Shown here piece by piece: positions 45,906-58,376 of a DNA stretch of 64,000 nucleotides. Under the pieces are notes generated by a model. That model had not been told where the DNA came from and did no database searches. It was given only the letters and a program-made list of their open reading frames with translations. Position 1 is the first letter of the stretch. Every line of letters starts with the position of its first letter. The position numbers and the translations under genes are program-made. The stretch is from Flavobacteriales bacterium (GTDB lineage Bacteria > Bacteroidota > Bacteroidia > Flavobacteriales_G > JALEGO01). Location: contig JAHDEG010000006.1 in the NCBI GenBank assembly GCA_020628935.1, positions 1-64,000 of the forward strand, given 5' to 3'.

Positions 45906-47714
45906 TTAGTGGCCATAACCAGCTCCTTCATCAACTTCTCCCTCAGCAAGCGGAACTGTCTGAGGTATAAAATCTTCATCAGCACCTGGCTTACTGTAAT
46001 CATATGGCCATCTGTGAACTGTTGGAAGTGCACCATGCCAGTTACCGTGAATATGTTCTACCGGAGTTGTCCATTCTAAGGTGTTAGACTTCCAAGGGTT
46101 TTGCGGGGCTCTCTGTCCTTTAAAAATGCTAAATAAAAAGTTAAATACAAATAATAACTGAGCTACTGCCCCTAATATTGCAAACCATGTTACAAGCTGG
46201 TTTAGTTCAAGCATATCATCAAACATTGGGAAAGCTGTATTTTCATAATATCGTCTTGGTATACCTGCTAAACCAATAAAATGCTGAGGTAGAAAAACTC
46301 CAAATGCACTAATGAAGGTTAACCAAAAATGAACATAACCTAATTTATTATTCATCATTTTACAATACATCTTAGGAAACCAATGGTAAATACCTGCAAA
46401 CATTGCTAGTACAGCAGACATTCCCATAACGATATGAAAGTGAGCTACCACAAAATATGTATCATGCAAATTAATGTCCAAAGCGGAATCTGCCAAGATT
46501 ATTCCTGTCACCCCACCAGTAACGAATGTAGAGACAGTACCTATAGCAAATAACATTGCTGGTGTAAAAATAATCCTTCCTTTATATAGTGTTGTTAAAT
46601 AATTGAATGCTTTTACAGCAGATGGAATTGCTATAAGTAAAGTTGTAAATGTAAATACGGCTCCTAAGAATGGGTTCATCCCTGTGATAAACATATGGTG
46701 TCCCCAAACAATAAATGATAGAAAACCGATTGCTAGTATAGATACAATCATGGCTCTGTAACCAAAAATTGGTTTACGAGAATTAGTAGCAATTACTTCA
46801 GAACTAATACCTAATGCAGGTAATAATACAATGTACACCTCTGGGTGTCCCAGAAACCAAAATAAATGTTGAAATAAAACTGGACTACCTCCTGAAACAT
46901 CTAATAACTGGCCTTGAACCATTATATCTGATAGATAAAAACTTGTACCAAAGCTTCTATCAAAAACTAGAAGCAAAGCAGCTGCCAATAATACTGGAAA
47001 TGATAATACACCTAATATAGCTGTAACTAGAATTGCCCATATAGTAAGAGGCATTCTAGTCATTTTCATTCCTTTAGTTCTTAAGTTTATTATAGTTACA
47101 ATATAGTTTAATCCTCCAATTAAAGAGGACGCGATAAAGATTGTCATACTAACCAACCAAAGTGTCATCCCAGTTCCTGAACCAGGAATTGTCTCAGGAA
47201 TGGCACTCAGTGGCGGATAAATTGTCCATCCTGCAGAGGCAGGACCACCTTCAACGAAAATAGAAGCTATCATTATTACTGATGCAAGAAAGAAAAACCA
47301 ATAAGATAACATGTTCATAAAACCTGAAGCCATGTCTCTTGCTCCAATTTGAAGTGGAATTAACAAATTTGCAAAAGTTCCACTCAATCCACCTGTTAAG
47401 ACAAAAAATACCATTATAGTGCCGTGCATTGTCACTAAAGCCAAATATTTATCAGGACTCAATATACCATCTGGAGCCCAAACATCTCCTAAAATCCATT
47501 TTAAAATAGCAAATGACTCTCCTTGCCAACCAAGTTGTAACCTAAATAGAGTAGACATTCCCATACCTACCAAAGCCATCACAAGTCCTGTTACCAAGAA
47601 CTGCTTTGAGATCATCTTATGATCTTGACTAAACACATACTTAGTTAAGAAACCTTCTTTATGCGGTATATGAATGTGCGCATTACCCTCGTTTGCTGTT
47701 GCTGCTACTCCCAT
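45906..47714 (-). CDS. coxA: Cytochrome c oxidase subunit I
   Basis: FWFLGHPEVYIVLLPALGISSEVIATNSRKPIFGY, WGHHMFITGM, HDTYFVVAHFHIVMGMSAV. Confidence 0.97.
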   Translation of the reverse strand: MGVAATANEGNAHIHIPHKEGFLTKYVFSQDHKMISKQFLVTGLVMALVGMGMSTLFRLQLGWQGESFAILKWILGDVWAPDGILSPDKYLALVTMHGTIMVFFVLTGGLSGTFANLLIPLQIGARDMASGFMNMLSYWFFFLASVIMIASIFVEGGPASAGWTIYPPLSAIPETIPGSGTGMTLWLVSMTIFIASSLIGGLNYIVTIINLRTKGMKMTRMPLTIWAILVTAILGVLSFPVLLAAALLLVFDRSFGTSFYLSDIMVQGQLLDVSGGSPVLFQHLFWFLGHPEVYIVLLPALGISSEVIATNSRKPIFGYRAMIVSILAIGFLSFIVWGHHMFITGMNPFLGAVFTFTTLLIAIPSAVKAFNYLTTLYKGRIIFTPAMLFAIGTVSTFVTGGVTGIILADSALDINLHDTYFVVAHFHIVMGMSAVLAMFAGIYHWFPKMYCKMMNNKLGYVHFWLTFISAFGVFLPQHFIGLAGIPRRYYENTAFPMFDDMLELNQLVTWFAILGAVAQLLFVFNFLFSIFKGQRAPQNPWKSNTLEWTTPVEHIHGNWHGALPTVHRWPYDYSKPGADEDFIPQTVPLAEGEVDEGAGYGH

Positions 47715-47716
47715 TT

Positions 47717-48847
47717 TTAGTTTATTTCTAAGTTCTCTGCTAGTTTATTATCTACCTTTTTTGATTTGGTTGTTAAACCTTCTGAATCTCCAAATGTTTT
47801 TTTGCTGCTCAACCATTTATCAAAATCTTCCTGCGACTCTACAACTATTTTCATTTGCATATTGTAATGACTCGCACCGCAGATCTTATTACATAGTAAT
47901 ATGTAATCGAATTCAACTTGATCTTCGCCCTTCTCAGAACGTATCAAATTAATTTTCTCATACTTTCTCATCACCTTCGGGTCTTGTCTCATCTCGTTAG
48001 TAGTAATTGTAGGTACAAAAGTAAACTGAGTGTTCATTCCTGGCACTGCATTCATTTGAGCTCTGAAATGAGGCATGTAAGCAGAATGTATTACATCTTG
48101 TGATCTAATCTTGAATTTTACAGGAACATTAACCGGCAAATGAAACTCGCTTTTTACAATAATATCGTCTAGAGAATTAGGGTCGTTCTTCATAACGCCC
48201 GTTTGATTTGATCCTTCAATATATCTTACATTAGCCATTCCTAATTCACCATCTGCACCTGCGTACCTGGCATGCCAATCGAACTGGCGAGCATAAAGTT
48301 CAATAACAACTGGCTCTACTACTGAGCCATCAGCAGCCAGTACCTCTTTATCAGCATCCATAACATTATTCCAAATAGTTAGTCCGAAAATAATTATAAA
48401 GGCCAAAAATATAGATGGAATAATAGTCCAGAATAACTCAAGTTTATTATTGTGAGGAAAAAACTCTGCGGTTTCTCTTTTTTCTCTAACATATTTGAAA
48501 GCAAAGAAGAATAGCAACGTATTGATAACTACAAAAACGATATTTACAACTACCAAGTTTATATTCATTAAAGCATCAATGCTATAAATACTACCTTCTT
48601 TAAAACCGTGGGCACTTGCAGCCTTAGGTAAGAGTGCATCAGAATATTCAAAAATCAAGTATATATAGCCCGCATACAGCGCAATCATAAATACAATGAA
48701 AAGAATCGCGTTCCAACTGTTTTCAGAGGCAGATACATTTTCTTCTCTCTCACCTCTTAACTCTTTGGAAGCTTGGTACACCATTGCTAATCTAACCAAT
48801 GCTGCTACACCCAAAAAAATTACTGCATATATTAAAAATGTGATCAT
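47717..48847 (-). CDS. coxB: Cytochrome c oxidase subunit II (CuA, no fused heme c)
   Basis: KLELFWTIIPSIFLAFIIIFGLTIW; ARQFDWHARYAG; CuA motif CNKICGASHYNMQM. Confidence 0.95.
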   Translation of the reverse strand: MITFLIYAVIFLGVAALVRLAMVYQASKELRGEREENVSASENSWNAILFIVFMIALYAGYIYLIFEYSDALLPKAASAHGFKEGSIYSIDALMNINLVVVNIVFVVINTLLFFFAFKYVREKRETAEFFPHNNKLELFWTIIPSIFLAFIIIFGLTIWNNVMDADKEVLAADGSVVEPVVIELYARQFDWHARYAGADGELGMANVRYIEGSNQTGVMKNDPNSLDDIIVKSEFHLPVNVPVKFKIRSQDVIHSAYMPHFRAQMNAVPGMNTQFTFVPTITTNEMRQDPKVMRKYEKINLIRSEKGEDQVEFDYILLCNKICGASHYNMQMKIVVESQEDFDKWLSSKKTFGDSEGLTTKSKKVDNKLAENLEIN

Positions 48848-48866: not shown

Positions 48867-50240
48867 TTAAAGATGAAAATTAATACTCTCATCTAAATAA
48901 GGATTATTTTTTACAACTAAGTTTGCCTTACTAAGCGATCTGAAAACAAAGAACATAAAAACCCCTAAAAACCCTAACATCAATCCGATTTCTTGAAAAC
49001 CGAATTCAAAGCCTGATTTTGCAACGGCTGGAGTTATCAGTAAATAAGCATCCATCCAATGGCCTAAAAATATAAATATTCCTACAAAAGTTAACCAAAA
49101 CGGACTACGTTTATTTGCACTGTCCATAAGTAACAAAGTTGGAAAAATAAAGTTTACCAAAAACATACCAATAAATAACGATTTATACTCTCCAAATAAT
49201 CTTGGTATGTAATATGTCACCTCCTCAGGGATGTTCGCATACCAAATAAGCATGAATTGAGAAAACCACAGATAGCTCCACAAAATACTAATAGCAAACA
49301 TCCATTTTCCTAAATCTTGGATATGGCTAGAATTAACATATGGCATGTGACCGTTTCTTTTTAAATAAAGCACTATAAGAATCATTGCGGTTAGGCAAGA
49401 TATCCAAATACCTGAGAAGATATACCACCCAAATAGTGTACTAAACCAATGTGTATCTATTGACATTATCCATAGCCAACTAAGTACTACAGAAGAGTAA
49501 CCAAAAATGACTAAAAATCCAGCTGCAGAAGCGAAATTACTCATGTGCAGTTTAGTTCCTGCTTCTTTGTCTTCTTGTAAGGAGCGAGTCCTAAACATTC
49601 TCTGGAAGAATATATACAACCCTACAAAGAAAATGCTAAAGCCCCAAAAAACATATTGATTAAGAAATGGCTTTTTGCCAGCTATCAATCTATCATAATG
49701 CTCAGATGTAGGATCCATTACATCTGGATCCATCCAGTGGTAAATATGGTTCCAGTGCAAGCTAGCTGCTATAAATACAATTGCAAGTGGAATTGCACCC
49801 GGAATAATATAAGATGATATAGCCTCCATAATTCGTTTCAAAACCGTAGACCAACCTGCTTCAGCAGCATACTGAATAGACATGAAAAACAAGGCCGCAA
49901 TAGCTATACCAAAAAAGAAAAACGAGTTAATTAAAAGATTAGTCCATAATCTTGTTGATCCATCATGATGTGTTGATTCGCTTACTTCATGAGCAACGTG
50001 TGATCCGTGGCTTTCAGTGTGAGCAACACGTGGATCACTACTTTCATGATTTGCTGAAAGTTCTGTTTTAGACTGATGAGCATCATTTTCACCATGATTA
50101 TCAGACATTGCTCCGAATACTAAGGCAACTAATGAAATAACACCAATAGCCATTAGAATAAACGTAAATGTTTTTAATTTTCCACCAAAAACAAATTTAT
50201 CTTCTAAATTCATTACGGTTGTTGTGTGAGAATCTCCCAT
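48867..50240 (-). CDS. actF: Alternative complex III subunit ActF
   Basis: Position in the act operon; about 10 TM helices; quinol:cytochrome c oxidoreductase-like sequence; His-rich loop after first TM. Confidence 0.87.
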   Translation of the reverse strand: MGDSHTTTVMNLEDKFVFGGKLKTFTFILMAIGVISLVALVFGAMSDNHGENDAHQSKTELSANHESSDPRVAHTESHGSHVAHEVSESTHHDGSTRLWTNLLINSFFFFGIAIAALFFMSIQYAAEAGWSTVLKRIMEAISSYIIPGAIPLAIVFIAASLHWNHIYHWMDPDVMDPTSEHYDRLIAGKKPFLNQYVFWGFSIFFVGLYIFFQRMFRTRSLQEDKEAGTKLHMSNFASAAGFLVIFGYSSVVLSWLWIMSIDTHWFSTLFGWYIFSGIWISCLTAMILIVLYLKRNGHMPYVNSSHIQDLGKWMFAISILWSYLWFSQFMLIWYANIPEEVTYYIPRLFGEYKSLFIGMFLVNFIFPTLLLMDSANKRSPFWLTFVGIFIFLGHWMDAYLLITPAVAKSGFEFGFQEIGLMLGFLGVFMFFVFRSLSKANLVVKNNPYLDESINFHL

Positions 50241-50258: not shown

Positions 50259-51299
50259 TTAATAAACTATTCTAAATTCAACCCTACGATTCTTAGCTCG
50301 ACCATCCTTTGAATCATTACTTGCCAAAGGTTTTGTTGAACCATATCCATGAGCGCTTACGTGATCACTATTAATGCCGTGAGAGGTTAAATAATCCATC
50401 ACTGCATTTGCTCTAGATTTTGACAACTCCATGTTTTTATCAAAATCACCTTTATTATCTGTATGTCCATTTACTAATAAAACATAATTTGGATATTTTA
50501 AAAGCACTTCTTTAACTTTAACCAAAACATCGTATGAGCTTTTTTTAATTTTAGACGATCCGGTAGCAAAGTTTACACCCTTAATCGCTTCTTCCATTAC
50601 TTGCGCAACTTCAGCTTCAACTTCAGGACATCCGAAGTAATCAGGTGATCCGGGGGTTTCGGGGCATTGATCTATATTATCTTCTACACCATCACCATCA
50701 GAGTCATTACTTTTAGTCCCATCACACGGCTTTTCTTTGCCTTGTAATTTTTGAACATAATGAACGAGTTTCCATCTGTCTTCTTTTGATATTTGTGATG
50801 CATGTGAACCCATCATACCTTTTCCATAATGAATACTGTGAAATATTTTTCCTTCAGGAAGATCTTTTAACTGAGCACTGTTGTATGCTGGTGGTGGACC
50901 TGGCCAGTTTTTGCTTTTAACAACCATACCGTCACCCTCTCCTGCTCCACCATGACAGTGAACACAAAATTTGGAATACAAAAGCTGAGCCTCTTCAATA
51001 ACAACAGGAGTGCAGGGTATTGGGTTTCGCAACTCGGCACCTGCAGATTCATAACCTTCAGCCGTATTATCATAAGGATAAACATCAAAACCACGAGGTA
51101 TGCTGTTTTTAACAGGCTTCAATGCAGAGAATCCTCCATTTCTAAGTGAATCCTCTTGATACGTCTCAATCGCATCGGTTCTGTACATATCTGGCATGTA
51201 CTCTACACCCGGACTTTGGGGATCTGATTTACACGACTGGAAAACAGTCGAGCAAATTAACATTACTAATATAAATAAATACTGATTTTTCATTCTCAT
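50259..51299 (-). CDS. actE: ActE-type mono-heme cytochrome c lipoprotein fused to a C-terminal TSP3 + OmpA-like domain
   Basis: Signal/lipobox-like VFQSCKS; heme motif CVHCH; DSDGDGVEDNIDQCPETPGSPDYFGCPE; OmpA motif VNGHTDNKGDFDKNMELSKSRANAVMDYL...GYGSTKPLASNDSKDGRAKNRRVEFRI. Confidence 0.92.
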   Translation of the reverse strand: MRMKNQYLFILVMLICSTVFQSCKSDPQSPGVEYMPDMYRTDAIETYQEDSLRNGGFSALKPVKNSIPRGFDVYPYDNTAEGYESAGAELRNPIPCTPVVIEEAQLLYSKFCVHCHGGAGEGDGMVVKSKNWPGPPPAYNSAQLKDLPEGKIFHSIHYGKGMMGSHASQISKEDRWKLVHYVQKLQGKEKPCDGTKSNDSDGDGVEDNIDQCPETPGSPDYFGCPEVEAEVAQVMEEAIKGVNFATGSSKIKKSSYDVLVKVKEVLLKYPNYVLLVNGHTDNKGDFDKNMELSKSRANAVMDYLTSHGINSDHVSAHGYGSTKPLASNDSKDGRAKNRRVEFRIVY

Positions 51300-51304
51300 T
51301 ATAT

Positions 51305-52177
51305 TTAAAGCTTACCTCCCTTATGTTCGTCTTGCCATTTGTTTAACTCATCCCACTTATTCTCAAAAGCCAACGCTGCTTGCTGTGGCCAACTTGCAGG
51401 GTCATGAACTCTGTAGCGTGGTCCGGCAGCAGTTAGTATTACTAAAATATCAGATGACTTAGACTCAGAAAGTTGTTTAAATGTAAATATGCCAGCGCCA
51501 TACAGTAATTCTTGTATTTTTGGCCCAATACCCTCAATTTTAACCAAAGCATCTTTTACAGTAGGTTCAGTGATTGCCGGAATAATAACGTTAGCAGGTT
51601 GTACATTAGAACTTGAAAAATTGTTTAGATTTAAGTGAGTTGGTTCCTCTCCAAGGTTTTTTTCAAAAATTTCAAAGGCACCAGTTGTTTTGAAAAGATC
51701 AATAATCTGGTTTTTAGTAAAGTTTTGATTGTAAATAGGATCAATCTCCATTGCAAAACAGTCATCGGTAGTTCTTGGGTCTGGATTTCTGGCTACGGCC
51801 CCAGGAAAAGTCCAATTTCTGATAAAATAAGTTATTGCCATGCCATGTGCAGCACACAATACTGTAAACTCAAATGCAATTGGAATGTAAGCAGGAAGGC
51901 CTTCAATTAAACTAAAGTTTGGCTTACCTCCAATGATCATTGGCCAATCAATTCCCATTACCCACCACATGAACGAGATACCAATAATTAAACCTGATAA
52001 TCCAAATATAAAGGCACAAATTGCTAACCTAGTCCATGCGATTCCTACAATTTTTTCTATTCCGTGAATAGGAAAAGGTGAGTAAACGTCCGAAACTTTC
52101 AAGCCACTATCAACTGCCTGTTTAGCAGCTAAGCTAACAACTTCGTCATCATTATATAAACCGTAAATTTTCTTCAT
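51305..52177 (-). CDS. actD: Alternative complex III subunit ActD (DUF3341-like) with C-terminal HhH domain
   Basis: MKKIYGLYNDDEVVSLAAKQAVDSGLKVSDVYSPFPIHGIEK plus two TM helices; C-terminal LVKIEGIGPKIQELLYGAGIFTFKQLS...WDELNKWQDEHKGGKL. Confidence 0.92.
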   Translation of the reverse strand: MKKIYGLYNDDEVVSLAAKQAVDSGLKVSDVYSPFPIHGIEKIVGIAWTRLAICAFIFGLSGLIIGISFMWWVMGIDWPMIIGGKPNFSLIEGLPAYIPIAFEFTVLCAAHGMAITYFIRNWTFPGAVARNPDPRTTDDCFAMEIDPIYNQNFTKNQIIDLFKTTGAFEIFEKNLGEEPTHLNLNNFSSSNVQPANVIIPAITEPTVKDALVKIEGIGPKIQELLYGAGIFTFKQLSESKSSDILVILTAAGPRYRVHDPASWPQQAALAFENKWDELNKWQDEHKGGKL

Positions 52178-52185
52178 AATACTAA

Positions 52186-53859
52186 TTAATTGGCTTTGCC
52201 ACCATTCAATTCATCTTGCCATTTTTTTAACTCATCCCATCTTTGTTCATTAGCCATTTTCGCCTGGTTTGGCCAGGTTTTTGGTTCATGAGTTCTAAAA
52301 CGTGAGCCTTGCGAATCTAATTTCAATTTAATATTTATCGGATCAATTAAAGATAATTGCTTGAAGGTGTAAATTCCCATTTCGTTAAGCAAACCACTTA
52401 TAACAGGACCTATTCCCTCTATTTTAGTTAAGTCATCAGAATTTGCGTAAGCAGGCTTTGATGCTATTAACGGATTAATTACTGTTCCGTTTTTGTAGTT
52501 ATTACCTGATGATTTCAAAATTGTTTTCAACTCATTTAATGCTAAAACAGGGAATGTTCTTGCATATAATAAAAACAGAGTAAAAAAGATTCCGATCGTA
52601 CCTATAAATATTCCTATATCAACGAATGTTGGATGGAACATATCCCAATTTGAAGGAAGGTAATCTCTTGCCGTAGACATGATAATTACAAAACGCTCAA
52701 ACCACATACCAATGTTAACTACTATAGAAATTATAAAAGATATTATTAAACTTCTTCTTGCTTTTTTAATAAAGAAGATTAACGGGCTAATAACATTACA
52801 AGACATCATAAACAAATATGCCCACCAATATGGTCCTCTTGCCCTGTTAAGAAAGGCATAAGTTTCATATTCAACACCTGAGTACCAAGCAATGAATAAC
52901 TCAGATAAATAGGCAACACCCACCATTGAGCCTGTAATAACAATTACAATATTCATATACTCGTGATGCTTAACTGTAATGTAGTCTTCAAGGTTTAATA
53001 CCTTTCTTGCAGTCAACATTAAGGTTTGAACCATTGCAAATCCAGAGAAAACTGCTCCAGCAACAAAATATGGAGGAAAAATAGTTGTATGCCAACCTGG
53101 TATTACCGAAGTAGCAAAATCCATACTTACAATAGAGTGTACAGAAAATACTAACGGAGTTGCTAAACCAGCTAAAACAAGGGAAATTTCCTCAAAACGA
53201 ACCCAGGCTTTAATGTTACCCGTCCATCCCCAACTTAGGATAGAGTATATCTTTTTTTGTAAAGGTTTAACTGCTCTATCTCTAATTGTCGCAAAATCAG
53301 GTATTAGACCAATATACCAAAAAACTAAAGAGACACTAAAATAAGTAGAGATTGCAAAAACATCCCATAATAAAGGTGAATTAAAATTTACCCATAATGT
53401 TCCAAATTGGTTTTTGAATATACCGAATGGCATCATAATCCAATGGGCATTCCAAATACGTCCCATGTGCATTAACGGGAATAAACCAGCCATCATTACG
53501 GCAAATATTGTCATTGCCTCTGCAGAACGGTTAATTGCCATTCTCCACTTTTGACGGAAAAGCAAAAGCACCGCAGATATCAATGTACCAGCATGACCAA
53601 TACCTACCCACCATACAAAGTTAGTTATATCCCATGCCCAACCTACCGTTGAATTTAAACCCCAAACACCAATACCTGTTCCAATAGTGTAAGCAATACA
53701 GCCTACCCCCCAAACTGCAATGATTGCAGATAAAGAAAAAACTATCCACCAGTATTTATTTGCTTTTCCGAACACAGGTTTTACCACATCATCGGTAATC
53801 TGCTTGTAGGATTTATCCCCAAAAATAAGGGGTTGTCTAATGTCTGATTCTTTGTGCAT
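52186..53859 (-). CDS. actC: Alternative complex III subunit ActC (NrfD-like) with C-terminal HhH domain
   Basis: NrfD-like multi-TM integral membrane protein; C-terminal LTKIEGIGPVISGLLNEMGIYTFKQLS...WDELKKWQDELNGGKAN. Confidence 0.92.
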   Translation of the reverse strand: MHKESDIRQPLIFGDKSYKQITDDVVKPVFGKANKYWWIVFSLSAIIAVWGVGCIAYTIGTGIGVWGLNSTVGWAWDITNFVWWVGIGHAGTLISAVLLLFRQKWRMAINRSAEAMTIFAVMMAGLFPLMHMGRIWNAHWIMMPFGIFKNQFGTLWVNFNSPLLWDVFAISTYFSVSLVFWYIGLIPDFATIRDRAVKPLQKKIYSILSWGWTGNIKAWVRFEEISLVLAGLATPLVFSVHSIVSMDFATSVIPGWHTTIFPPYFVAGAVFSGFAMVQTLMLTARKVLNLEDYITVKHHEYMNIVIVITGSMVGVAYLSELFIAWYSGVEYETYAFLNRARGPYWWAYLFMMSCNVISPLIFFIKKARRSLIISFIISIVVNIGMWFERFVIIMSTARDYLPSNWDMFHPTFVDIGIFIGTIGIFFTLFLLYARTFPVLALNELKTILKSSGNNYKNGTVINPLIASKPAYANSDDLTKIEGIGPVISGLLNEMGIYTFKQLSLIDPINIKLKLDSQGSRFRTHEPKTWPNQAKMANEQRWDELKKWQDELNGGKAN

Positions 53860-53870
53860 ATGAAATTGTA

Positions 53871-56800
53871 TTAAGCTTCAGATTCAGCTATGTTACGAAC
53901 TTTGGTTAGATATTTAACATTTGGTTGTGTTCCTACCTCTTCAAGTAATGCATAAGCTCTGTCGTTATTAAATTCTTTTCGAACATTTGAGCCCGAATCA
54001 TTTAAATCACCAAAGGTTATTGCATTTGTTGGGCAAGCATCCTCACAAGCCATTTTAATTGCTCCGTCTTGAACCTTATCTTTTTTCTTTTTTGCGTCAA
54101 GTTTACCTGCTTGTATACGTTGAACACACATACTACATTTTTCCATTACCCCTCTTGAACGAACAGTAACATCTGGATTTAAGACCATTCTTCCAACAGT
54201 GTCTTGAGAAGGATTAACATCACTAAACTTCTTGTATTTATCGTATTGAAACCAGTTGAATCTTCTTACCTTGTAAGGACAGTTATTAGCACAATATCTA
54301 GTCCCTACACAACGGTTATACGTCATTTGGTTTAAGCCTTCGTTGCTATGAGTTGTAGCGGCAACTGGACAAACAGTTTCACACGGAGCGTGGTTACAAT
54401 GTTGGCACATAACTGGCTGGAAAACAACCTGAGGGTATTCTTCTGGCTTTTCCATTGCACTATACATTTCCCACGATCCTAAGCCTTCCTCTTCAGCTTT
54501 GTTTACATCCATGTCGCTAGAGAAATATCTGTCGATACGTAACCAAAACATATCTCTATTTCTTCTTACTTCATCTTTTCCTACAACAGGTACATTATTC
54601 TCAGAATGACAAGCTGTAACACATGAACTACAACCAATACAAGAGTTTAAATCGATAGTCATTCCCCACCTATGACCAAAAGTATCGTATTTGTGCGGAG
54701 CCCAAAGGTCTAACTTATCTGTTGTTTTCTCTTCACCATATGAATCTACAAGAGTAAGTGTAGGGTTGTAAGCGTCTTTTCCTTTTTTATAAGTGGCTAT
54801 TGTTGTTTCATTAACAATTTTACGACCAATTTCAGGATCTTCAAGATCCTTATCCATTATAGTATTATGGGTTTGCGAAGATGCCATTAAATAAGTCTCG
54901 CCAGTAGATTCTATTTTAACATCTGTATTATAGAATAAGATATCATTTTGGCTATTAGTCGTTAAAAATGGATATGCATTTTTACCAATTAGCTTATCAT
55001 CAACAATTGTTTTACCATAACCCAATGCTATACCTATGGTCTTCCTTTTTTGACCTGGTACTGGAAATACTGGTAATGATATTTCTTTACCAGAAGCCGT
55101 AACTTTAGCAATATTTGCAGGAGTTTCTTGTTGAAGGTTAACAGTGAAACCCATTTCCTTCATATCAACAGGGTTCATCGCAATATAGTTATCCCACACA
55201 ACCTTAGTTATAGGATCTGGTAACTCTTGTAACCATGGGTTATCTGCATGACGGCCATCACCAATCGATGTTTTAGTATATAACTCCAATTCCCAATCTG
55301 ACGATTTAATACTATAAATATTATCTGCCGCTCGAGCTAATTTATCTGAAGATAAGTTGTAGCCTCCTGTTAAAAGTCCGTCAATTTTAGCGGAATAAAC
55401 ACCGTCTCTCAATGAATTATTCCAAAAGTTTCTAAAACTTGAAGCACCTGACGTTGGATAGCCATCTTTATTCCAGTTGTCCTTAATGTTATCATAATAC
55501 GTTCCATCAATATTCGCCCACGCCATTAGCGTTTCTTGAAACTGACGCGTTTTGTATAAAGGATTAATTACAGGCTGAATTAAACTATAGTTCGCATATG
55601 AAGGCTGAGCATCATTCCATGATTCTAAGTAATGATGATCAGGGCAAACAAAATCACAAAGCGCTGTGGTTTGGTTTGGCTTTGTATCTGTAGAGACCTT
55701 TAGTGATACTTTACTTAGTGCTGCGTTAAAATCGAGAGAATTTGATAAACTGTATACTGGATCTATTCCATTAAAAATTATAGCTCCAATTTTCCCTGAT
55801 TTCATTTCTGAAACAAGGTTAACTACATCAGCGTCTTTACCCTTTTTTAAATAGCAAGGTCTTTGAATATCTATAGTGTTTGAATAACTACCTAGTAAAT
55901 TATTTATTGAGTTAATTACTAACTGGGTATTAGTATCATTTGAACCACTAATAACAAGTCCGTTGTTTCTATTTTTCCATAACTCAGTCGCTATTGACTT
56001 TATTCCTGCACTCAGATTAAGATTGTCATCTTTTAGTGGAGATGACTTTAAAGCAGGCGCGCCTGCTTTTTTTGCAATCTCGTTATATAGCATGACGATT
56101 AACTTTCCCAGTTCAGAAGGTTTAACAGGCATTCTAACATCAGCATTTGAACCTGAAAGAGACATTCCTGTTTCAATTTGATAATGCTTAGTCATCCAAT
56201 CAGCTTCTGGCTTTCTAACCTGAGCATACTGCTTGGTGTATGTTGTGCTCATTAACCAGTTACTCAAAAAATCCGCTCCGAAGCTCACAATAACCTTAGC
56301 TTTGTCAAAGTTATAGGTTGGAATTACAGCAGAACCAAAAGTATCGTTATTAGCATTTAGTATTGCCGAACTGGACAATGCATCATAAGTAACATGTTCA
56401 ACTAGATTTAATTCTTCTAAATTAGAATAAGATGATAACCTACCTGCAAATGTATTTACTAAAGAAATTGTAGAAGGACTAATTATAGAATTAGTCATTA
56501 TCACAACTTTTTTACCTGATGCGATTGTATTTCTTAATTTCTCTTTTATTTCTTTATCTGCATTTTCCCAAGAAATTTGGGTGCCTGCTTTTTGTGGAGC
56601 TGTAAATCTTTTAGAATCATATAAATCTAACAGCGAAGAGTTCACTCTTGCATTTATTGCCCCCTTCGTTAATTCTGAACGGTCATTACCTTTGATATGT
56701 ATTGGTCTACCCTCTCTGGTTTTAACAAGAATGCTTGCATAGTCATTACCATCGTAATAAGTAGATGCATAATAATTAGGAACACCAGGCACGATTTCTT

Positions 56801-57050
56801 CAGGAAGAACTACGTATGGTACAGATTTAATAACAGGCGTTTCACAAGCAGCAAGTGTTGCGGCAGATACACTAAAGCCTAAGAACTTCAAAAAGTCTCT
56901 CCTTGAAGTAGTAGTACTTTCTAGGGGAGTTTTTGACAAGAAGTCTTCTACAGGAATTTGTTCTGCAAATTCTTTGTCAGCTGTTTTAAGAAACGTTTCG
57001 TCTCCTTCTAAATGCTGAACACTATTCCAATATTTTTTTGTTCCACTCAT
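53871..57050 (-). CDS. actB: Alternative complex III subunit ActB (TAT-translocated molybdopterin-like + 4Fe-4S ferredoxin domains)
   Basis: TSRRDFLKFLGFSVSAATLAACE; IDLNSCIGCSSCVTACHSENNVPVVG, CQHCNHAPCETVCPVAAT, CVGTRYCANNCPYKVRRFNW. Confidence 0.95.
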   Translation of the reverse strand: MSGTKKYWNSVQHLEGDETFLKTADKEFAEQIPVEDFLSKTPLESTTTSRRDFLKFLGFSVSAATLAACETPVIKSVPYVVLPEEIVPGVPNYYASTYYDGNDYASILVKTREGRPIHIKGNDRSELTKGAINARVNSSLLDLYDSKRFTAPQKAGTQISWENADKEIKEKLRNTIASGKKVVIMTNSIISPSTISLVNTFAGRLSSYSNLEELNLVEHVTYDALSSSAILNANNDTFGSAVIPTYNFDKAKVIVSFGADFLSNWLMSTTYTKQYAQVRKPEADWMTKHYQIETGMSLSGSNADVRMPVKPSELGKLIVMLYNEIAKKAGAPALKSSPLKDDNLNLSAGIKSIATELWKNRNNGLVISGSNDTNTQLVINSINNLLGSYSNTIDIQRPCYLKKGKDADVVNLVSEMKSGKIGAIIFNGIDPVYSLSNSLDFNAALSKVSLKVSTDTKPNQTTALCDFVCPDHHYLESWNDAQPSYANYSLIQPVINPLYKTRQFQETLMAWANIDGTYYDNIKDNWNKDGYPTSGASSFRNFWNNSLRDGVYSAKIDGLLTGGYNLSSDKLARAADNIYSIKSSDWELELYTKTSIGDGRHADNPWLQELPDPITKVVWDNYIAMNPVDMKEMGFTVNLQQETPANIAKVTASGKEISLPVFPVPGQKRKTIGIALGYGKTIVDDKLIGKNAYPFLTTNSQNDILFYNTDVKIESTGETYLMASSQTHNTIMDKDLEDPEIGRKIVNETTIATYKKGKDAYNPTLTLVDSYGEEKTTDKLDLWAPHKYDTFGHRWGMTIDLNSCIGCSSCVTACHSENNVPVVGKDEVRRNRDMFWLRIDRYFSSDMDVNKAEEEGLGSWEMYSAMEKPEEYPQVVFQPVMCQHCNHAPCETVCPVAATTHSNEGLNQMTYNRCVGTRYCANNCPYKVRRFNWFQYDKYKKFSDVNPSQDTVGRMVLNPDVTVRSRGVMEKCSMCVQRIQAGKLDAKKKKDKVQDGAIKMACEDACPTNAITFGDLNDSGSNVRKEFNNDRAYALLEEVGTQPNVKYLTKVRNIAESEA

Positions 57051-57080: not shown

Positions 57081-58376
57081 TTAATAATGACATTTTGAAC
57101 ACTCTAAACCACCTATATCTTCAACTTGAAATACTTCAACATCTTTGTGTTGAGCTCTCAATTCGTTAAACATTTTTTGATAGTATGGGTTTTTAGCTAC
57201 CTCACCTTCATCATCAGATGCGGCAAGACCCGCTACTTCCGTTTCTCTGTGACAGTTTATACACCAGCCCATTGTTAATTCAGAGTACTGGTATAATTCA
57301 TGCATTTCCTCAACAGGACCATGACATGTTTGACACTCGATTTCACCAACCGTAACGTGTTGTGAGTGATTGAAGTAAGCTAAATCTGGCAAATTATGTA
57401 TTCTAATCCACTTAATTGGCTTTTGCTCTCCATCGTATTTACCGGTTTCAGGATTAAAACCTGAAGCTTCGTAAATCTTAGCTATTTCTTCTGTACCCGT
57501 CCAGGTTCCTTTTTGTATTCCTTTGTGACAATTCATACAAACATTAACTGAAGGTATTCCAGAGTGAGCGCTTTTTTCAGCACTATGGTGGCAATATATA
57601 CAGCTTATTCCGTTTTCACCAGCGTGAATTGCATGAGAAAATTTAATTGGCTGCTCTGGCTTGTACCCTTGATACACTCCAACACTCATAAGCGAATAAT
57701 ACAGTTGCATAAATGCAATAAATGCAACTAGAATGATTAATAATCCTGTTTGCAATTTGTGATTGGCAAACCAGTTAAGTAAGTTTTTAGGAAAAGGCAA
57801 GGGCTCTTTAAACTCTTTGTCATCTTTAACCGCTATTGACTTTTGCAATGAGTTTTTAATACTACCTAGCGCACTAACAAGAATTATAAATATAATGGCT
57901 AATGAAACTAACCACAGCATGGTTGTGTAATCAGTTTTTTCTTTAACTGGAATAAATGGGTTTTGTTTACCACCAGAATCAGCAACATCTACAGGCGGCT
58001 CATATGTAATTATGTATTCTTTAACAGCGAGAAGCTCTTCATCAGAAAGATGAGGCTGTGGAGTCATGACTGAACCGTACTCTTTATATAGTTTGTTGAT
58101 GTAAGGATCTTTACCAGAGTTAACTATAGTGGCTGAATTTTTAACCCAATTTAAATACCATTTCGTTTTACCAGCGTCATCTCCTCCAGGAATTCTATCC
58201 CAAAAACCTTGAAGACCAGGACCAGTTCCTCTTCTTGCTCCCGGTGAATGACATGTAGCACAATTAGCCTTAAATATAGCCGCACCTTCTTCTTGAGCTA
58301 ATGAATAATCGGTTGTAAAAACCAACACCATAAAGACTAATAACAAATACTTTACTTTTCCAAACATTTCTGACAT
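57081..58376 (-). CDS. actA: Alternative complex III subunit ActA: N-terminal mono-heme cytochrome c plus pentaheme domain
   Basis: Six CxxCH motifs: CATCH, CIYCH, CMNCH, CQTCH, CINCH, CSKCH; TM segments between heme 1 and hemes 2-6. Confidence 0.93.
   Translation of the reverse strand: MSEMFGKVKYLLLVFMVLVFTTDYSLAQEEGAAIFKANCATCHSPGARRGTGPGLQGFWDRIPGGDDAGKTKWYLNWVKNSATIVNSGKDPYINKLYKEYGSVMTPQPHLSDEELLAVKEYIITYEPPVDVADSGGKQNPFIPVKEKTDYTTMLWLVSLAIIFIILVSALGSIKNSLQKSIAVKDDKEFKEPLPFPKNLLNWFANHKLQTGLLIILVAFIAFMQLYYSLMSVGVYQGYKPEQPIKFSHAIHAGENGISCIYCHHSAEKSAHSGIPSVNVCMNCHKGIQKGTWTGTEEIAKIYEASGFNPETGKYDGEQKPIKWIRIHNLPDLAYFNHSQHVTVGEIECQTCHGPVEEMHELYQYSELTMGWCINCHRETEVAGLAASDDEGEVAKNPYYQKMFNELRAQHKDVEVFQVEDIGGLECSKCHY

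Follow-up and report, generated by a model that had tools for sequence, protein, structure and literature searches.

An ActE cytochrome of alternative complex III joined to an OmpA-C domain in Bacteroidota

The actE-ompA gene and its operon

The window, that is, the whole stretch of 64,000 nucleotides analyzed here, contains on its minus strand an alternative complex III (ACIII) cluster in the order actA-actB-actC-actD-actE-actF-coxB-coxA, running from 58376 down to 45906. The product of actA (57081..58376) is a multiheme cytochrome of 431 aa that has, according to Pfam, an extra mono-heme c domain at its N-terminus, like its F. johnsoniae counterpart; this gene is followed by actB (53871..57050; molybdopterin-like and Fe-S domains in Pfam), actC (52186..53859; NrfD-like, PF03916, 58.5 bits) and actD (51305..52177; PF11821, 169 bits). 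Beyond actE lie actF (48867..50240), which was named by synteny, with no Pfam family scoring above the cut-off, coxB for cytochrome oxidase subunit II (47717..48847; PF02790/PF00116) and coxA for subunit I (45906..47714; named from its sequence and place). The gene of interest, actE, is situated between actD and actF and consists of 346 codons, from the ATG at 51299 to the stop codon at 50259, which is included in these coordinates; the frame is uninterrupted, and the plus strand across the same region is stop-rich. A preliminary description of this DNA, which gave no strand, had already read it as a single uninterrupted 346-aa ORF within the ACIII operon, and the gene neighborhood bears this out.

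The protein starts with a signal peptide that ends at a lipobox cysteine, Cys23 (FQSC; residues 1-23, 51231..51299). This cysteine is invariant among 41 aligned ActE sequences, and lipid attachment at this position is predicted. The adjacent mono-heme cytochrome domain (residues 28-187; 50739..51218) has F. johnsoniae ActE as its top ACIII match in a sequence search of the PDB (6btm_E, E=1.7e-31), with further matches to the solved ActE chains 6f0k_E, 6lod_E and 8k9e_E; Pfam reports PF13442/PF00034, with Cytochrome_CBB3 at 41.6 bits against a cut-off of 27 over residues 102-182. There is one CxxCH heme site, CVHCH (residues 112-116; 50952..50966), in which C112, C115 and H116 are invariant in the 41 ActE, as is Met163 (50811..50813), the probable distal ligand given that the heme of R. 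marinus ActE is ligated by His/Met (PMC5928083). The fusion also retains the N-terminal ActE motif GVEYMPDMYR, which forms part of the docking segment of ActE in solved ACIII.

Downstream of the cytochrome domain is a TSP3-like repeat with a linker (residues 199-225; 50625..50705), of which residues 199-224 read DSDGDGVEDNIDQCPETPGSPDYFGC. This stretch can be aligned with the TSP3 repeats in 5wtl_A but scores 19.8 bits (residues 198-216), below the cut-off of 25, for Pfam TSP_3 (PF02412); the remaining TSP3-bearing fusions described below reach 18.7-24.7 bits against the same cut-off. The C-terminus is an OmpA-C domain of the peptidoglycan-binding type (residues 240-345; 50265..50582), matched by PF00691 with 78.3 bits (cut-off 27.2) over residues 244-338, and the top PDB match of the entire protein is the OmpA of C. 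gingivalis (5wtl_A, residues 199-345, E=3e-41). In the AlphaFold model, the cytochrome and OmpA-C domains are confident and the linker has low confidence near residues 195-210. Foldseek matches of the model include 6btm_E, 5wtp, TagL, Pal and 3td3/3td4/3td5, of which 3td4 and 3td5 are structures with peptidoglycan ligands; by target length, the TM-score of the OmpA-C model is 0.82 to 5wtp_C and 0.76 to 3td4_B. All four elements listed in the preliminary description, namely, a lipobox-like signal, a single CVHCH site, a TSP3 repeat and a full OmpA-C domain, can thus be located in the protein, the TSP3 repeat with the below-threshold score given above. At 346 aa and with a C-terminal OmpA-C domain, the protein is not a small single-domain subunit, but this form is a usual rather than a necessary feature of ActE, so that membership in the family stands. 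Judging from these sequence matches and the model, the ORF is a real ActE, linked by a single TSP3-like repeat to a complete OmpA-C domain.

Distribution and origins of the fusion

Within the order to which the window belongs, ActE is present in 39 of 42 genomes. In the window's family (f1), all three genomes with ActE, from two genera, have the fused form in frames of 348-354 codons, and all 36 ActE from other families of the order are unfused, with frames of 208-294 codons. The two other f1 fusions share 62% and 60% identity with the window protein along the full length. The same open fusion is thus found in both other f1 genomes with ActE (98% complete), as well as in two Crocinitomicaceae genomes, so that a frameshift or an assembly join of two genes, which the preliminary description had raised as a potential objection, can be rejected.

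Most ACIII are devoid of an OmpA-C domain. Only one of the 80 ActE loci in a collection of named genomes, from a Crocinitomix metagenome-assembled genome (MAG), is fused. Among the matches listed for 395 genomes across the class, full-length fusions come from f1 and family f55, and among those listed for 396 genomes across the phylum, the only fusion is that of the window itself. The family of the Crocinitomix MAG has the fusion in at least 2 of 150 genomes, and its order has it in at least 6 genomes (at least 7 loci) out of 399 at the threshold of E 1e-80 used in that survey. All these counts are lower bounds, and it was only in the survey of f55 that degraded cases, G278 among them, came to light. 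In four of the genomes from the order of the Crocinitomix MAG, namely, G962, G975 (two copies), G988 and G1189, the OmpA-C domain is present without TSP3. An OmpA-like tail without TSP3 is also found in f55, in genus g134 (5 of 5), in G324 and in three genomes of genus g73; those f55 tails that were scanned exceed the Pfam OmpA cut-off. In g73, decay of the tail is visible: the OmpA domain of G278 (L237) is highly degraded, and G915 (L226) has a mere remnant of the OmpA C-terminus. The fusion is therefore rare yet recurrent in Bacteroidota, occurring in f1, in Crocinitomicaceae and their relatives, and in f55. Open full texts yielded no account of an ActE-OmpA fusion, in line with the preliminary description, whose author was not aware of one and had allowed that the fusion might turn out to be common and already described. 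Apparently, this is a real, conserved variant of ACIII that so far has gone undescribed.

Several other long frames were considered as additional fusions and rejected: those of G395, G411, G128 and G160 contain no OmpA tail, and that of G066 is an ActD-ActE fusion, with both subunits encoded in a single 364-aa ORF (L145, 4616-5710). The two copies in G975 belong to two different ActE-OmpA operons (L276, L278) in one genome bin, which may represent two strains in one MAG. In f55, the ActA ORFs (L207, L208, L209) are only about 284-309 aa long and apparently lack the N-terminal mono-heme domain of the window type.

In a tree of ActD and ActE with 91 rows, the f1, Crocinitomicaceae-type and f55 fusions form separate supported clades amid unfused relatives. 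The distribution of the fusion on this tree requires 8 changes, a count that by itself is compatible with repeated gain, with transfer and with repeated loss. The AU test rejects both a single clade of all fused operons (p 0.0004) and a grouping of f1 with the Crocinitomicaceae-type fusions. The tree of the OmpA domain, at 117 columns too short for a decision on reuse of one module, is compatible with a single origin (AU p 0.80-0.88).

Ligand residues, selection and helix-hairpin-helix tails

In the OmpA of A. baumannii, Asp271 and Arg286 bind diaminopimelate (DAP) (PMC5974059). By motif and equal spacing, their counterparts in the window protein are Asp281 (50457..50459) and Arg296 (50412..50414). 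Both residues are retained in all f1 and Crocinitomicaceae fusions and, as read from the sequences, in G962, G975, G988 and G1189; together with the NRR(V/T)E end, the pair is intact in the f1 and Crocinitomicaceae-type fusions. In f55, the Arg is retained, and the Asp has given way to Ser, Ala, Gly or Trp in every fusion but the otherwise highly degraded one in G278, so that wall binding alone does not account for the tail in this family. The tails of f1 and g134 are under purifying selection: pN is 0.19 vs pS of 0.68 in f1 (G001/G002), and dN/dS is about 0.07-0.10 in g134, where dS is estimable, and relaxed, up to 0.42, in g73, all these ratios being rough because the synonymous sites are almost saturated.

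The window ActC and ActD each end in a helix-hairpin-helix (HhH) tail of about 80 residues (52195-52440 and 51311-51556, respectively). Among the operons of the tree set, such a tail on ActC and/or ActD is present in 17 of the 18 scorable fused operons (the exception is G324; G1189 was not scorable) and in 6 of the 72 unfused ones, all of them relatives of fused lineages. The tail is found on both subunits in f1, on ActC in Crocinitomicaceae, G962, G975 and G988, and on ActD in f55, where G915 retains it along with the OmpA remnant. With relatedness ignored, the association between OmpA and HhH has a raw Fisher p of 2e-12; a phylogeny-aware test has just 6 independent pairs, of which 4.8 on average point in the same direction and 0 in the opposite one (median p 0.0625), and on this test the association is only suggestive. 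The third HhH copy of the window genome ends ribosomal protein bL21 (G000:C17, L269), and no OmpA-HhH gene pair was found there. In G001 and G002 (L168, L169), the immediate neighbor of an OmpA-family gene encodes a small membrane protein that bears the same HhH tail, possibly a stand-alone HhH/OmpA pairing.

A proposed mooring of ACIII and its relation to known systems

The preliminary description suggested that the fusion might tether the complex to the cell wall or toward the outer membrane. The second of these has no support because OmpA-C is the soluble part that binds peptidoglycan, the protein contains no beta-barrel, and its N-terminus is the lipoprotein anchor of ActE, which reaches the inner membrane in solved ACIII. 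In the R. marinus complex (PMC5928083), ActE sits atop ActA in the periplasm, with its N-terminus reaching the membrane at the lipobox, and both ActC and ActD have their termini in the cytoplasm. The fused ActE would take the same place. After cleavage of the signal peptide and lipidation of Cys23, the cytochrome domain would dock atop ActA, at the periplasmic tip of ACIII, where the His116/Met163 heme would still lengthen the electron wire. A flexible arm of about 35-50 residues, stiffened by the single TSP3 repeat of calcium-binding type, would bear the OmpA-C domain, which, in turn, could hold peptidoglycan stem peptides via Asp281 and Arg296. A wall-binding head on the outermost ACIII subunit would thus moor the inner-membrane complex, along with any bound cytochrome aa3, to peptidoglycan from the inside and non-covalently, in the manner of MotB and TssL. 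A dual role of ActE, as heme subunit and as non-covalent mooring, is in our view the best explanation of the data and a reasonably probable one. Because the predicted lipid-anchored ActE carries a domain of the wall-gripping kind, the fusion-bearing ACIII is probably moored to the cell wall; the tether is likely in f1 and the Crocinitomicaceae-type fusions and doubtful in f55.

The f55 tails may point to a different function. Their ligand Asp is lost, except in the degraded G278, and yet the g134 domain is under purifying selection, as could be the case if the tail had given up peptidoglycan binding and served as an assembly or protein contact, in the dimerization of ACIII or as a clamp on ActE or the oxidase. 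There is space for such contacts: unidentified density is seen above ActE in the R. marinus ACIII (PMC5928083), and therefore extra proteins can sit there. In f1 and the Crocinitomicaceae-type fusions, however, both ligand residues and the NRR(V/T)E end are intact, which a domain serving merely for contact would not require, and we consider this possibility unlikely. Less plausible still is a departure of the fused protein from ACIII to become a heme-bearing outer-membrane lipoprotein similar to Pal. The combination of a predicted lipoprotein with a peptidoglycan-binding-type domain does resemble Pal, as the Foldseek matches indicate, but the fused protein is the sole ActE found in its genome, is encoded inside the act operon and retains the docking-segment motif GVEYMPDMYR; furthermore, in F. 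johnsoniae, ActE is present in the membrane only together with ActA (PMC8552683).

The mooring of ACIII through ActE might be complemented on the opposite face of the membrane. Speculatively, and with rather low confidence, ACIII could have been anchored on two faces more than once in several Bacteroidota lineages, through ActE-OmpA to peptidoglycan outside and through the HhH tails of ActC/ActD inside, which would fix the supercomplex in the envelope. In that case, the paired OmpA and HhH domains of one operon would work together; in any event, the close association of ActE-OmpA with cytoplasmic HhH tails on other subunits of its complex calls for an explanation and lends itself to testing.

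The usual assumption is that respiratory complexes diffuse in the membrane. No respiratory complex that carries its own wall anchor is known to us, and we found none described in open full texts. If the fused ActE indeed moors ACIII, it would provide a natural system for asking how fixing a supercomplex in place affects electron transfer. A scaffolding role would then also be one purpose of a heme subunit that is dispensable for electron transfer in F. johnsoniae.

Several known systems resemble parts of the fused protein. The F. johnsoniae ActE (6btm chain E) shares with it the mono-heme domain with a lipid anchor, predicted in the window protein, the N-terminal motif and the assignment to ACIII, and the ActA subunits of both complexes have the extra N-terminal heme domain, but the F. 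johnsoniae ActE has neither TSP3 nor OmpA-C. The periplasmic part of C. gingivalis OmpA (5wtl, 5wtp) has the same succession of TSP3 and OmpA-C and is about 45% identical to residues 199-345 of the window protein; it belongs, however, to a protein of the outer membrane in which TSP3 occurs several times, whereas the window protein has one repeat, on a cytochrome. Pal is likewise a lipoprotein with an OmpA-C domain, but one that resides in the outer membrane, lacks heme and binds TolB. Parallels to the proposed role are offered by MotB/PomB and TssL (TagL), in which OmpA-C moors an inner-membrane machine to peptidoglycan, the flagellar stator in the case of MotB and the type VI secretion base in the case of TssL; unlike ActE, these proteins are anchored by a transmembrane helix and have no redox function.
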